A stretch of 64,000 bases of DNA. Source: Chryseobacterium gregarium DSM 19109. Its GTDB lineage: Bacteria > Bacteroidota > Bacteroidia > Flavobacteriales > Weeksellaceae. The notes under the pieces are model-generated. The model worked only from the letters and a program-made list of their open reading frames with translations. It was not told where the DNA came from and did not search any database. The position numbers and the translations under genes are program-made. The stretch covers positions 62,001-126,000 of the forward strand of contig NZ_AUMU01000008.1 of assembly GCF_000430845.1 (NCBI RefSeq), given 5' to 3'. This document shows, in pieces, positions 484 through 64,000 of the stretch. Numbering within the stretch: the stretch's first letter is position 1; every line of letters begins with the position of its first letter.

Positions 484-796
484 TGATAGGTGTTTACAGT
501 AAAAATAAAAAATTATAAATAATTGCTTTTCTTACTGAAATTCACCTGATTTCCAAAACAATAAAAAAATATTCGTTTATTTATTGATCTGGCCGTAAAG
601 TATTTACATAAAATTTAAATAATTCTTAAAAAAATCAGCTGACTAAATAAATTATGAATTTGAAAATAAATTACAAAGCATTCAATGTGAATGGCTTATC
701 GATTTTTTATCTGACGGCGTATTTTATCATTAATATAATTAAAACAGCTGCTTCATTCCTGAAACAGCCGTTATGTATTTATCAACTATATAGTAA
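484..796. other. Gene-poor gap between sufD and the YifB gene
   Basis: A strongly AT-rich 313-base spacer between two minus-strand genes. It should carry the promoter of the YifB gene, but I found no convincing TAnnTTTG element there and no clear terminator hairpin behind sufD. A plus-strand ORF of 48 codons (654-800, starting MNLKINYKAF) exists and overlaps the sufD stop codon. It resembles no family I know and could easily be chance in such AT-rich DNA. Confidence 0.5.
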
Positions 797-2104
797 TTAA
801 AATTCTATATCAACTTCCAGTTTCTCAGCCAAAAGCTTTGAAATTTTTTCTTTTAACGGTTCGATGTCAATATTCTGCATCGCGTCATTGGCAAAAGCAT
901 ATAAAAGGAGTGCCTGGGCTGCCTTTTTAGAAATACCTCTTGCCCTCAGATAAAATAAGGCATCCTCATTCAGCTGGCCTACCGTACAGCCGTGGGAACA
1001 TTTCACATCATCTGCAAAAATTTCCAGCTGAGGCTTGGTATTAATAACAGCACCTTCACTTAATAAAACATTGTTATTTTGCTGGTAGGCATTGGTTTTC
1101 TGGGCCAATTTATCTACAAAGACTTTCCCGTTAAATACCCCGTGAGATTTTCCGTTGAAAATACCCTTGTAATTCTGATAGCTTTCACAATTCGGAAATT
1201 TATGGTGAACCGCCGTATGGTGGTCTACCAGCTGATCTTTTCCGATGATGGTGATTCCGTTCATGAATGAATTGATATTCGATCCGTTATGGATGAAATC
1301 AAGGTTGTTCCTGACCAGCTTACCTCCGAAAGAGAAGGTATTCACCGTGGTTAAGCTGTCTTTTTCCTGCCTGGCAAAAGTACTGTCGATAAGATAGGAC
1401 GTATCATTGTCATTCTGTACTTTATGCCAGTCTGCTTTTGCATTGGGATGGGTGAAAATTTCTGTCACCGAATTTGTCAATACATAGATGCTGTCAAAAT
1501 TGTGGTGGCTTTCAATGATTTCCACTTTGGATCCTTCTTCTGCAATTAATAAATTCCGGGTATTGTAGAAGGTATTTTCTTCCTGATTCTGGGAAATATA
1601 AAAAATGTGAATCGGTTTTTCAATCACTACATTTTTAGGAACTTTAAGAAAGAACCCATATTTGCAGTAGGCTTGATTCAGGTTGGCAAAAGCAGAATCT
1701 TTGGCTGCAATGGTATTAAAATACTGCTCAAAAACATCTTTATGTTTCTCATCATTCAATGCATAATTAAATGAAAGAAACTCAACGTTTTCTATGGAAA
1801 CTTTAGACAGTTCTTTGCGAAGCTTACCGTTTACAAAAGTAATCCAGTCAAAATTTTCTTCACCCAGATGAAGCTGGTCCAGCTGCTCTTTGGTGATGTT
1901 ATGATTTTCTTTCGGGAAAAAATTATATTCTTTTTCAGTAATTTCCTTAAGGTTGGTATACTTGAATTCTTCGTCTTTTTTAGTCGGAAAACCCATGTTT
2001 TCAAATCTTTGAAGAGCTGTTTTTCTATCCTCATCCAGAAATCTGTGACGAAGGCTCTCCAAAAACGCATGATGGTTTTCTATAATCTGTTCTTTTAATG
2101 CCAT
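797..2104 (-). CDS. sufD: Fe-S cluster assembly protein SufD
   Basis: SufD partners SufB and the ATPase SufC in the cytosolic SufBC2D scaffold on which Fe-S clusters are built. The protein has the right-handed beta-helix core typical of SufB/SufD; its C-terminal part contains ADDVKCSHGCTVGQLNEDALFYLRARGI, of which the CSHGCTVG stretch is the family hallmark, followed by the AxxLLLYAF segment. The N-terminus carries the KDEEFKYTNL motif seen in SufD. I start it at the ATG giving MALKEQIIENHH, which fits the family. An in-frame ATG nine codons upstream (2131) is possible and has an A-rich leader. It is third in a sufB-sufC-sufD order on the minus strand, behind a 101-base spacer that contains a short palindrome. 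Confidence 0.95.
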   Translation of the reverse strand: MALKEQIIENHHAFLESLRHRFLDEDRKTALQRFENMGFPTKKDEEFKYTNLKEITEKEYNFFPKENHNITKEQLDQLHLGEENFDWITFVNGKLRKELSKVSIENVEFLSFNYALNDEKHKDVFEQYFNTIAAKDSAFANLNQAYCKYGFFLKVPKNVVIEKPIHIFYISQNQEENTFYNTRNLLIAEEGSKVEIIESHHNFDSIYVLTNSVTEIFTHPNAKADWHKVQNDNDTSYLIDSTFARQEKDSLTTVNTFSFGGKLVRNNLDFIHNGSNINSFMNGITIIGKDQLVDHHTAVHHKFPNCESYQNYKGIFNGKSHGVFNGKVFVDKLAQKTNAYQQNNNVLLSEGAVINTKPQLEIFADDVKCSHGCTVGQLNEDALFYLRARGISKKAAQALLLYAFANDAMQNIDIEPLKEKISKLLAEKLEVDIEF

Positions 2105-61030: not shown

Positions 61031-61059
61031 TTTGGTTTTAAAAAAAAATTATATATTTG
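61031..61059 (+). promoter_or_regulatory. Promoter of the rtcB leader transcript
   Basis: TTTG, 17 bases, TATATTTG: full flavobacterial consensus. No other consensus promoter is visible before rtcB, so transcripts should begin near 61066 and carry a roughly 460-nt untranslated leader. Confidence 0.75.
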
Positions 61060-61100
61060 CACCAGAAATAAAGTTTAACCCTTTTAAAAACAACGAAGCA

Positions 61101-61178
61101 ATGTTCAGATTAGATCATCATTCTCCTTTCGGTTTGCCACTTATGGTGGTAAGGCTTCGTGGTTGGGTACATTCTTAG
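61101..61178 (+). CDS. 25-codon micro-ORF in the rtcB leader (candidate leader peptide)
   Basis: ATG at 61101 and TAG at 61176-61178. The peptide begins MFRLDHHSPFGLPLMVV and ends RLRGWVHS. It is the first ORF behind a strong promoter, 41 bases from the -7 element, and shares HSxxxLP and an Arg-rich end with the micro-ORF at 45888-45950, which has the same 41-base spacing. Leader peptides of this size usually work by ribosome stalling or by coupling translation to RNA folding. Function here is inferred. Confidence 0.5.
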   Translation: MFRLDHHSPFGLPLMVVRLRGWVHS

Positions 61179-61522
61179 AATAACAGTATAATGAAATATC
61201 AGAACCAGGAGTCATAAGATTTCGGGTTTTTGTTGCGCAATATTTCAAACTCAAACAAGTTTCCCCGAAATCATTTTTAATCAGGAGCTTAATCCCGCTG
61301 TCCACTGTATCTTTTTTTGCCATTGCTATTCAGGCCAATGCAAAAAAAGGATGCCGTTTCCATCGGGGCTAATGATAATGCTCAGCCTAAATTTCACAGT
61401 TTTTAAAAATTGTGAGGTCTAAATAAAAATCAACTAAAATTTTAGTTGGTAATGATTGGTGTAAGTCTGATTTTAGATTTCTAAAATCTAGTGTCTTACA
61501 TCTTAAATCTAAAAATATAACA
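61179..61522 (+). promoter_or_regulatory. Structured leader region ahead of rtcB
   Basis: This 344-base stretch contains no convincing gene but several hairpins: GATTTCGGG (61218-61226) with CCCGAAATC (61264-61272); an imperfect roughly 20-bp stem around 61299-61357 with T7/A7 arms; TCACAGTTTTT-centred palindrome 61394-61415 (one mismatch pair); the perfect 18-bp palindrome CAACTAAAATTTTAGTTG at 61431-61448; and a stem GATTTTAG-attt-CTAAAATC (61469-61488) capped outside by TGTAAG / CTTACA (61460-61500). The last hairpin ends 22 bases before the rtcB ATG. The number and placement suggest a regulatory RNA (attenuator, riboswitch or autoregulatory site). An antisense 60-codon frame (61141-61323) was not accepted as a gene. 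Confidence 0.5.
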
Positions 61523-62914
61523 ATGGGAAATTTAAAACTAAAAGGAAAAGATATATTAAAACTGGGCTATCCGAACAATCAGAGTGTCAACATCGCTCTG
61601 GAGGTAATGAAAAGGAATTTTGCAACGAAAAATATCCATCATGTGAAATCTCTTTTGAAGGAAATCCTGATTAATCCTGAGAGCTATGAAAAAGATCTCA
61701 CCTTCGGGCAAATCGCGGAAGCCCTACTTTCATCCAGAAAAACAGAAAAAAGGATGCTGAATGCCAGCCGGACCTCGTTTCAGATTTTTGGAAACCAAAT
61801 TTCAGATGAAGCCAAAAACCAGTTATACACAGGACTGAAGCTTCCGATTGCGGTGCAGGGAGCATTAATGCCCGATGCCCACAGCGGTTACGGGCTTCCA
61901 ATCGGCGGCGTTCTTGCGGTCGAAAATGCTGTGATACCTTACGGGGTCGGGATGGATATCGGCTGTAGGATGAGCCTCAGTATTCTGGATACACCGGTTT
62001 CATATCTGGACGGTGCAAAAGATAAATATGAAAAAGCGCTGGCTGAACATACCAAGTTCGGGATGTACGAAACACATAAATCCCATGTCGATCATGAAAT
62101 TTTCGACAGGGATACGTTCGATATGATCCCGGTTTTAAAAAGATTAAAAGGAAAAGCCATCAGACAAATGGGAAGTTCCGGCGGCGGAAACCACTTTGTG
62201 GAATTCGGGGAAGTTGAAATTACGGAAGATGACGGTCAGATCGGGCTTCCAAAAGGAAAATACCTCGGCATTCTTTCCCACAGCGGTTCGCGTGGTCTGG
62301 GAGCGGAAATCGCCCAGTATTATTCAAGAGTGGCAACAGAACAATGCCCGCTACCAAAAGAAGCGCAGAACTTCGCCTGGCTGGATCTGAATACGCATCT
62401 CGGGTTAGAATACTGGACGGGAATGAACCTTGCGGGAGATTATGCTTCAGCCTGCCATAATGATATTCACAGAAGATTGGTGAAAGCAGTCGGCGGACGG
62501 ATAAAAGCCAGAATTGAAAACCACCACAACTTCGCATGGAAAGAAATCCATAACGGCAAAGAAGTGATCGTTCACAGGAAAGGTGCCACTCCGGCCAACG
62601 AAAATGAGTTGGGAATAATTCCGGGATCAATGACGGCAAAAGGTTTTATCGTCCGCGGAAAAGGAAATCCGGATTCGCTGAACTCAGCTTCACACGGTGC
62701 CGGAAGAGCTTTTTCAAGAGGGGAATGCCGCAATCTTTTCACTCAAAATGACATCAGAAAAGAATTAAAACTCAAAAATGTCACTCTGATGGGCGGAAAT
62801 ACGGAAGAAGCACCGATGGCATACAAAGACATCAATGACGTCATGAATGCCCAAAGTGAGCTGGTGGATATTCTCGGAACTTTCCAGCCCAGGATTGTGA
62901 GGATGGATAAGTAA
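61523..62914 (+). CDS. rtcB: RNA ligase RtcB (long form, PrfH-associated)
   Basis: GTP- and Mn-dependent ligase that joins RNA 3'-phosphate (or 2',3'-cyclic phosphate) to 5'-OH ends. The 463-aa protein has an N-terminal extension of about 70 residues before the core. Key features: MPDAHSGYGLPIGGV, GMDIGCRM with metal ligands D145 and C148, GGGNHFVEFGE, SHSGSRGLG, NHHNFAW and the guanylylated His391 in SASHGAGRAFSRGE. The downstream genes are a nucleotidyltransferase and prfH on the same strand, matching the RtcB-PrfH pair shown to rescue ribosomes with cut 16S rRNA. It is somewhat longer than housekeeping RtcB of E. coli (408 aa). Confidence 0.95.
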   Translation: MGNLKLKGKDILKLGYPNNQSVNIALEVMKRNFATKNIHHVKSLLKEILINPESYEKDLTFGQIAEALLSSRKTEKRMLNASRTSFQIFGNQISDEAKNQLYTGLKLPIAVQGALMPDAHSGYGLPIGGVLAVENAVIPYGVGMDIGCRMSLSILDTPVSYLDGAKDKYEKALAEHTKFGMYETHKSHVDHEIFDRDTFDMIPVLKRLKGKAIRQMGSSGGGNHFVEFGEVEITEDDGQIGLPKGKYLGILSHSGSRGLGAEIAQYYSRVATEQCPLPKEAQNFAWLDLNTHLGLEYWTGMNLAGDYASACHNDIHRRLVKAVGGRIKARIENHHNFAWKEIHNGKEVIVHRKGATPANENELGIIPGSMTAKGFIVRGKGNPDSLNSASHGAGRAFSRGECRNLFTQNDIRKELKLKNVTLMGGNTEEAPMAYKDINDVMNAQSELVDILGTFQPRIVRMDK

Positions 62915-63024: not shown

Positions 63025-63570
63025 ATGGGAGCACCACATAATATAAAACGGTACGGTGAAGTCTGGCCGGAATTCAGAATTCAATACGGACTCGAGATTT
63101 TAGAAAAATTAAAAAATAAAGTCATTTTATCAGGAGGCTGGGCGTGGCATTTTATGTCTGAAACCGGGCACACGGAATATAAACACGCCCATGACCATAA
63201 GGATATTGATATTTTTGTAGAGAAAGAAAATGTAGCTGAAGCCGTTATGATTCTTCAGCAGGAAGGTTTTCAGAAAGTATGGACCCGTTATGATCATTTA
63301 CTCGGTGAAGAAAACTTCCGCAGGTATGAGAAAACAATCGAAACGGAAAATGGAAAATTCCACAGGATAACAATTGATTTCTTTGAAAGAAACGATTTGG
63401 AAACCGTAGAAATCAATGGATTTACAGTAGTGAAGCCTGACGTTTTACTTTCATTTTACAGGAATATTCATTCCAGTGATAAATGTTGGGCAGTCATGGC
63501 TGCAAAAGATTTATTGGAAAAAGGAATTGATCCTGTCAGTCATCCCGGATTAAGTGAAATGCCAAAATAA
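63025..63570 (+). CDS. LinB/ANT(2'')-like nucleotidyltransferase between rtcB and prfH
   Basis: A 181-aa protein with the nucleotidyltransferase-beta signature: [10 protein letters not shown] (GG at 37-38), the metal-binding DxD pair D60/D62 in [10 protein letters not shown] and a third acidic residue D118 in HRITIDFFE. The GGWA...H.DIDI pattern is most like the lincosamide (LinA/LinB) and ANT(2'') aminoglycoside nucleotidyltransferases, not the GS-type tRNA CCA enzymes. It is 2 bases ahead of the prfH ATG and clearly in the rtcB unit, so it may act on RNA ends or on ribosome/antibiotic targets; its substrate is unknown. Start chosen at 63025 (MGAPHN) after an A-rich stretch; ATG 62992 lies in a repeat. 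Confidence 0.75.
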
Positions 63571-63572
63571 CA

Positions 63573-64000
63573 ATGGAAAAATTAATACAGCTCACCTCAG
63601 GAAGAGGGCCCTTGGAATGCCAATGGGTGGTTGCCAAAGTGCTGAAGGTTTTCCTTGAGGAAGCAAAAGATAATACAATAGATTACGAAATCATACACCG
63701 TGAAAACGGCGATGAAAACCTGACATTGAAATCCGTAACCATCCTTGTAAAAGCAAAAAATTTAAATGAATTTTTAAAAACATGGTTAGGAAGCATTTGC
63801 TGGACAGGGAAAAGTACATTACGGAAACTCCACAAAAGAAGCAACTGGTTCATCGGTGTTTTTGAACTGGGTAGTTTGGAGGAAATTAATTTCAATGAAA
63901 AAGATATTCAATTCCAGACCACCCGGAGCCAGGGAAGTGGCGGACAAAATGTAAATAAAGTCAACACCGCCGTTCGTGCAACTCATTTGCCTACGGGACA
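63573..64000 (+). CDS. prfH: Peptide chain release factor H (5' part; cut by window edge)
   Basis: 142 codons of a stop-codon-independent release factor. It begins [18 protein letters not shown] and has the [17 protein letters not shown] segment and the catalytic GGQ at residues 123-125 ([11 protein letters not shown]). It lacks the long N-terminal and codon-recognition domains of RF1/RF2, as expected for PrfH (usually about 200 aa, so the last third is missing). The start is 2 bases after the stop of the nucleotidyltransferase gene. PrfH is known to release peptides from ribosomes damaged in the decoding centre, after which RtcB reseals the rRNA. Confidence 0.95.

Follow-up and report, generated by a model that had tools for sequence, protein, structure and literature searches.

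A minimal nucleotidyltransferase of the rtcB-prfH operon of Chryseobacterium gregarium, probably an RNA-mending helper, and a putative transcription attenuator upstream of the operon

A stretch of 64,000 nucleotides from the genome of Chryseobacterium gregarium DSM 19109 (hereafter the window) encodes a small protein with the active-site residues of a nucleotidyltransferase (NTase), which lies between the RNA ligase gene rtcB and the release-factor homologue gene prfH (Table 1). The question that this locus raises is whether such an enzyme modifies antibiotics or serves the repair of RNA, and how the operon that contains it is controlled.

Table 1. Features of the rtcB-NTase-prfH locus in the window, with release-factor-like proteins of virus records in the last row.
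Feature	Position	Strand	Remarks
Promoter element TAtaTTTGC	61052..61060	+	upstream of leader; Bacteroidota-type -7 element by its sequence
Operon leader RNA, proposed transcription attenuator	61088..61232	+	match of model R1, E 3.2e-18; also matched by nhmmer
Leader segment 1, ACGAAGC	61093..61099	+	immediately 5' of leader start codon; pairs with segment 2
Leader ORF, 25 aa, MFRLDHHSPFGLPLMVVRLRGWVHS	61101..61178	+	
Leader segment 2, GCTTCG-T-GGTT	61154..61164	+	inside Leu-Arg-Gly codons; pairs with segment 1 or 3
Leader segment 3, AACCAGGAG in window; consensus AACCCGAAG	61203..61211	+	antiterminator or terminator left arm
Leader segment 4, terminator right arm and T run	61220..61232	+	
rtcB, 463 aa, RNA 3'-phosphate ligase	61523..62914	+	PF01139, E 3.1e-79; conserved neighbour
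NTase gene	63025..63570	+	181 aa, minimal Pol-beta superfamily nucleotidyltransferase
Codons G37-G38 of SGGWAWH motif	63133..63138	+	invariant in 14 homologues
Codons D60-I61-D62, metal-binding DxD	63202..63210	+	both Asp invariant
Codon D118, third catalytic Asp	63376..63378	+	invariant
prfH, 5' part (232-aa gene extends beyond window end)	63573..64000	+	GGQ release-factor homologue
Short GGQ release-factor-like proteins, virus records	L160:1396-1995, L161:1237-1890, L159:1438-1851		

The translation of the NTase gene places G37-G38, D60, D62 and D118 exactly where the first-pass annotation of this DNA had proposed a catalytic set, in a protein that runs SGGWAWHF ... ITIDFF, and its motifs (SGGWAWH at residues 36-42, HDHKDIDI at 56-63, and D118) fit a minimal NTase. 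In an alignment of 14 homologues from Flavobacteriales and viruses (about 40-65% identity to the window protein), S36-GG-WAWH42, H56, D57, H58, D60, D62 and D118 are kept throughout, with no exception among the catalytic residues, including the three Asp residues whose possible loss in orthologues the annotation had raised. The AlphaFold2 model has a confident NTase fold (mean pLDDT 90). With its G-G/S motif, three catalytic carboxylates and NTase fold, the protein belongs to the Pol-beta superfamily, and its residues and predicted fold are those expected of a catalytically competent minimal NTase. In structure comparison, ANT(2''), LnuA, MenT1/MenT3, an NTase of H. pylori and TM1012 are tied as matches (Z about 9.3-10.6). 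Sequence profiles name no family for the protein: scores are below cut-off for Lnu(C) (NF000141, 23.1 bits, E 5.7e-5, curated cut-off 300 bits), Aminoglyc_resit of the ANT(2'') type (PF10706, 19.4 bits, E 1.2e-3, gathering cut-off 21) and NTP_transf_5 (PF14907, 19.4 bits, cut-off 31.2), as for the Lnu models in general. The claimed likeness to lincosamide and ANT(2'') enzymes thus stands for the fold, which the tRNA-acting MenT enzymes fit about equally (Z 9.5-10.6 for ANT(2''), LnuA and MenT), but does not extend to any antibiotic profile at its cut-off. An RlaP-type family is absent from the Pfam matches of the 14 members; searches of solved structures with the NTase sequence (single and profile) gave no match; PHROGs has no family for the NTase; and PADLOC returned nothing for the NTase, RtcB, PrfH or TPR protein.

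The genes are ordered rtcB, NTase, prfH and TPR with very short gaps; prfH starts 2 nt past the NTase stop codon, and the TPR gene overlaps the end of prfH. The window RtcB belongs to a PrfH-linked subfamily whose N-terminus is extended by about 85-100 aa, and its score against the RtcB2-type model TIGR03073 (141.2 bits) is below the cut-off of 271.8. PrfH, which carries GSGGQ, exceeds the cut-off of TIGR03072 (209.4 versus 166.65 bits). The linkage to a ribosome rescue pair, to which the annotation had drawn attention, proved to be strict: rtcB is upstream and prfH downstream, in the same order, in 80 of 80 related loci that were fetched by NTase similarity alone, and so the linkage is not a matter of chance. 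As a gene for a Pol-beta-fold NTase inside an RtcB-PrfH neighbourhood, the window gene has the setting that marks the RFH/PrfH-associated Pol-beta NTases, and is probably one of these. A sample of 395 Bacteroidota genomes contains true PrfH in 28 and the NTase in 8, all 8 of which adjoin PrfH (8/28 PrfH genomes versus 0/367 others across the phylum sample; Fisher 2e-10). The 20 PrfH genomes that lack the NTase have either nothing or a zinc-ribbon protein between rtcB and prfH; several Chryseobacterium loci have additional genes of other kinds downstream of the NTase and before prfH, and other Chryseobacterium genomes have the operon with no NTase. The NTase is therefore an optional module, as are several others, and because 18 of the 26 flavobacterial prfH operons tested lack it, the core system works in its absence, which weighs against the repair role proposed below. 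One flavobacterial locus has an inserted gene for a 313-aa protein of a different family after the NTase gene and before prfH (L081:5561-6500). The rtcB genes of L029 and L033 appear frame-shifted, as does prfH of L029, which may represent assembly errors or decayed copies.

Homologues of the NTase (36-55% identical) also occur in large IMG/VR records and in a deposited 735-kb phage genome. Among records of at least 60 kb, with two records of one lineage merged before counting, RtcB is encoded in 8 of 11 that bear the NTase versus 2 of 23 random virus records (p = 3e-4), a small control set that was drawn by random 14-mer sampling; above 200 kb the numbers are 6/7 and 0/5. Virus identity is the IMG/VR classification, except for the deposited phage LR756501, and 9 of 10 records have no match to Pfam Terminase_6N; a phage control set matched by Terminase_6N was dropped, this domain being present in only 1/10 records. 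Three records have RtcB at 0.3-4 kb from the NTase and one lineage has it at about 7 kb, whereas the two are far apart in others; RtcB is closer to the NTase than expected by chance (combined p 0.009), an effect that is modest overall and absent in some records. The virus RtcBs are of several lineages, divergent from each other and from bacterial RtcB, and three records have tRNA arrays at most about 5 kb from the NTase. Short GGQ release-factor-like proteins are encoded in the three largest NTase-bearing records, at a long distance from the NTase. Zinc-ribbon-like segments are added to the virus NTases of two lineages (L096:5001-5729, L103:4941-5897), and may be compared with the separate zinc-ribbon gene that can fill the rtcB-prfH slot in bacteria. 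In a tree, the bacterial prfH-linked NTases group together within the virus diversity with moderate support (91/88) and long branches present, which agrees with the single clade that had been proposed for phylogenetic checking. The co-occurrence of virus homologues with RtcB is new here. The company of RtcB and tRNA arrays speaks for repair of RNA or tRNA rather than for drug modification, and points to RNA ends, possibly those of tRNA, as the substrate and away from drugs, although it is no proof. The RNA or translation role that the annotation had suggested is likewise favoured by linkage to RtcB in two settings; this favours the role itself, not its being ancestral.

The NTase could act on RNA in another way, as a MenT-like enzyme that caps or blocks tRNA acceptor ends, holding translation reversibly during repair by RtcB and PrfH, or as a toxin-like module tamed by the operon. 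In favour of this, MenT1, MenT3 and MenT4 (Z about 7.8-10) come close to the antibiotic NTases as matches of the predicted fold, and the tRNA arrays near virus copies of the NTase are also consistent with such an enzyme. It is nonetheless unlikely, as profiles gave no match to a MenT/AbiEii or toxin family, no separate antitoxin-like gene is seen with the NTase, and the NTase lies between repair genes of an operon that other Chryseobacterium genomes possess in an NTase-less form.

Control of the operon appears to reside in a leader RNA upstream of rtcB, in which a 25-codon ORF is located 3' of the promoter and 5' of a terminator. The leader points toward rtcB in every Chryseobacterium-group operon examined that has enough upstream sequence, and it is also upstream of all 13 Flavobacterium-group NTase-less operons compared (L164-L175, L178). 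A covariance model detects the leader in 26/26 PrfH-bearing Flavobacteriales genomes (E at most 1.3e-10) and in 0/23 PrfH-less genomes (best E 0.002); the model was built partly from the PrfH-positive set, and new genomes are the independent test. All 13 regions checked that match with E below 1e-5 precede rtcB-prfH, divergent families included, versus none of 7 with weak matches. Two of these 7 precede a lone TPR homologue with no prfH nearby (L400:~500-1228, L405:~500-1698 (reversed)), hinting that the TPR protein may be controlled alone. The window genome has one copy of the leader, and the two PrfH genomes outside Flavobacteriales have none. Scans of Rfam 15 placed no family over its gathering score on the leader; the best match was the Bacteroides sRNA BTnc005 (28.7 bits versus a gathering score of 174.8), mainly via the terminator (L059:2397-2554). 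Between the leader and rtcB, antisense to them, a Flavo-1 RNA (RF01705, 61287-61374, minus strand) scores 70 bits, over its gathering score. No description of a leader for rtcB-prfH was found in the open-access literature, and the flavobacterial operon leader is new here and previously uncatalogued.

The leader forms three helices: segment 1 (ACGAAG) pairs with segment 2 (CTTCGT) in helix 1:2, segment 2 and its 3' extension pair with segment 3 in helix 2:3, and helix 3:4 is the terminator. All three show changes on both sides of the helix and do better than shuffled and slid controls both in cells paired and in covariation score, and pairing drops when partners are swapped among 21 distinct sequence combinations (p 8e-4). 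Antiterminator and terminator are thus mutually exclusive and both covary, as in an attenuator. For RNA ending at segment 3, predicted 2:3 pairing (mean over 88 sequences) rises from 0.34 with segment 1 free to 0.93 with segment 1 occupied. In the full-length leader at equilibrium the terminator is preferred in most sequences, and therefore the switch depends on folding during transcription. The leader resembles an attenuator that would be opened by a ribosome positioned on the leader start, and a function as a damage sensor is plausible. In the window copy, segment 3 is mutated relative to the consensus and the predicted probability of the antiterminator is only 0.01, so the switch of this strain may be weakened. 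An extra hairpin within the leader ORF (61139-61153) differs in sequence by lineage with its self-complementarity kept (GCCTTTTGCAAAGGC, CCACTTATGGTGG), as judged by eye and uncounted. A reading of the ORF as an arrest peptide is less favoured: C-terminal Leu-Arg-Gly can be replaced by Leu-Arg-Asp with no loss of pairing, and a few sequences have segment 2 in another frame or past the stop codon. It is quite unlikely that the leader is no switch but just a terminator that acts constitutively, its ORF being due to chance; dominance of the terminator at equilibrium, weakness of the antiterminator in the window copy and free variation of parts of the peptide would fit it, but segment 2 covaries with segments 1 and 3, and segment 3 with segment 4, so that bases change in step across mutually exclusive helices, and no flavobacterial prfH genome tested lacks the leader.

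Enzymes with the NTase fold can have proteins as substrates, and the tight coupling to prfH would suit an enzyme that controls a partner protein, be it RtcB, PrfH or a ribosomal protein, by nucleotidylating it; this is very unlikely, however, because the virus NTases accompany very different RtcBs and mostly lack a release-factor-like protein, leaving no shared protein target except RtcB or the ribosome. Least probable of all is an antibiotic-modifying NTase (lincosamide or aminoglycoside) inside a ribosome-protection operon, the drug modification coupled to ribosome repair that the annotation had offered: LnuA and ANT(2'') are among its best structural matches and there is weak profile similarity to Lnu(C) and Aminoglyc_resit, but all scores are below cut-off, a plasmid search found no NTase homologue, the rtcB-prfH linkage is strict, and the NTase occurs with RtcB in large virus records.

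The best explanation, which we hold to be somewhat probable, is that the NTase serves RtcB and PrfH as an accessory enzyme in a ribosome-repair operon, with a leader attenuator gating transcription; rather than conferring antibiotic resistance, the NTase probably helps to mend RNA. An RNase toxin would cut rRNA or tRNA on the ribosome; PrfH would release the stalled ribosome, as is known for E. coli PrfH; if nucleotides had been lost or the end were unsuitable, the NTase would add nucleotides to the RNA 3' end, its candidate substrate; RtcB would then rejoin the RNA ends, as is known for RtcB; and the TPR protein and, in some strains, the zinc-ribbon protein would help. In the direction of regulation that we infer, a ribosome translating the leader normally would end over segment 2, allowing the 3:4 terminator to form and turn the operon off, and the inducing signal would be a ribosome held at the leader start, which would cover segment 1 and leave segment 2 to pair with segment 3, turning the operon on. 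The usual substrates of RtcB are 3'-phosphate or cyclic-phosphate ends, which must be healed before an NTase can use them, and the operon contains no phosphatase, which counts against a course from NTase to RtcB. The roles of the ligase and the release factor are those of published work on E. coli, in which further degradation may follow cleavage of 16S rRNA by colicin E3, and end rebuilding would then be called for; it counts against the scheme that the protection given by E. coli RtcB2-PrfH covered rRNA cleavage but did not extend to colicins that cleave tRNA (PMC9223846).

A wider proposal, which we advance only tentatively, is that the Flavobacteriales attenuator senses ribosomes that start but cannot elongate and switches on the ribosome-repair operon, and that the NTase family is shared with giant phages, in which, paired with RtcB and tRNA arrays, it would mend RNAs that the host has cut. 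How cells detect cut ribosomes is largely an open question, and the leader makes it testable. The NTase is a concrete candidate for the enzyme that replaces missing nucleotides ahead of ligation; as large virus records also contain it together with RtcB and tRNAs, the tool seems to be common to phages and bacteria.

Linkage of an NTase, RFH and RtcB, with TPR and zinc-ribbon genes, was already described by Burroughs & Aravind in 2019 (PMC6514570), who proposed RNA repair in which the NTase, like RlaP, puts back missing nucleotides so that ligation can follow; as described there, RFH-RtcB operons with an accessory Pol-beta NTase and a TPR gene have the same gene set as the window, and the main text of that paper names neither virus homologues that co-occur with RtcB nor a leader element. 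RlaP, an RNA-ligase-associated Pol-beta NTase of phages and bacteria, pairs with RNA ligases in phages and in repair operons (PMC7824862), but according to PMC6514570 it is not specifically related to the RFH-linked NTase. The E. coli RtcB2-PrfH system, which protects against colicin E3 cleavage of 16S rRNA, likewise consists of a ligase and a GGQ release-factor homologue, but its operon as described has no NTase (PMC9223846), and the window RtcB differs from RtcB2 by a score far below the RtcB2 model and by its N-terminal extension. ANT(2'')-Ia, LnuA and the MenT tRNA nucleotidyltransferases have the same minimal NTase fold and GG...DxD...D active site, but are 9-18% identical to the window NTase in structural alignments and occur in a different gene context. 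Attenuators of the trp type resemble the window leader in having a leader ORF and mutually exclusive antiterminator and terminator helices; the window leader differs in that segment 1 is located at the leader start codon and a diagnostic codon run is not seen, and thus it would read occupancy of the start and not one amino acid. The preference for the terminator at equilibrium is shared with other attenuators that act during transcription.
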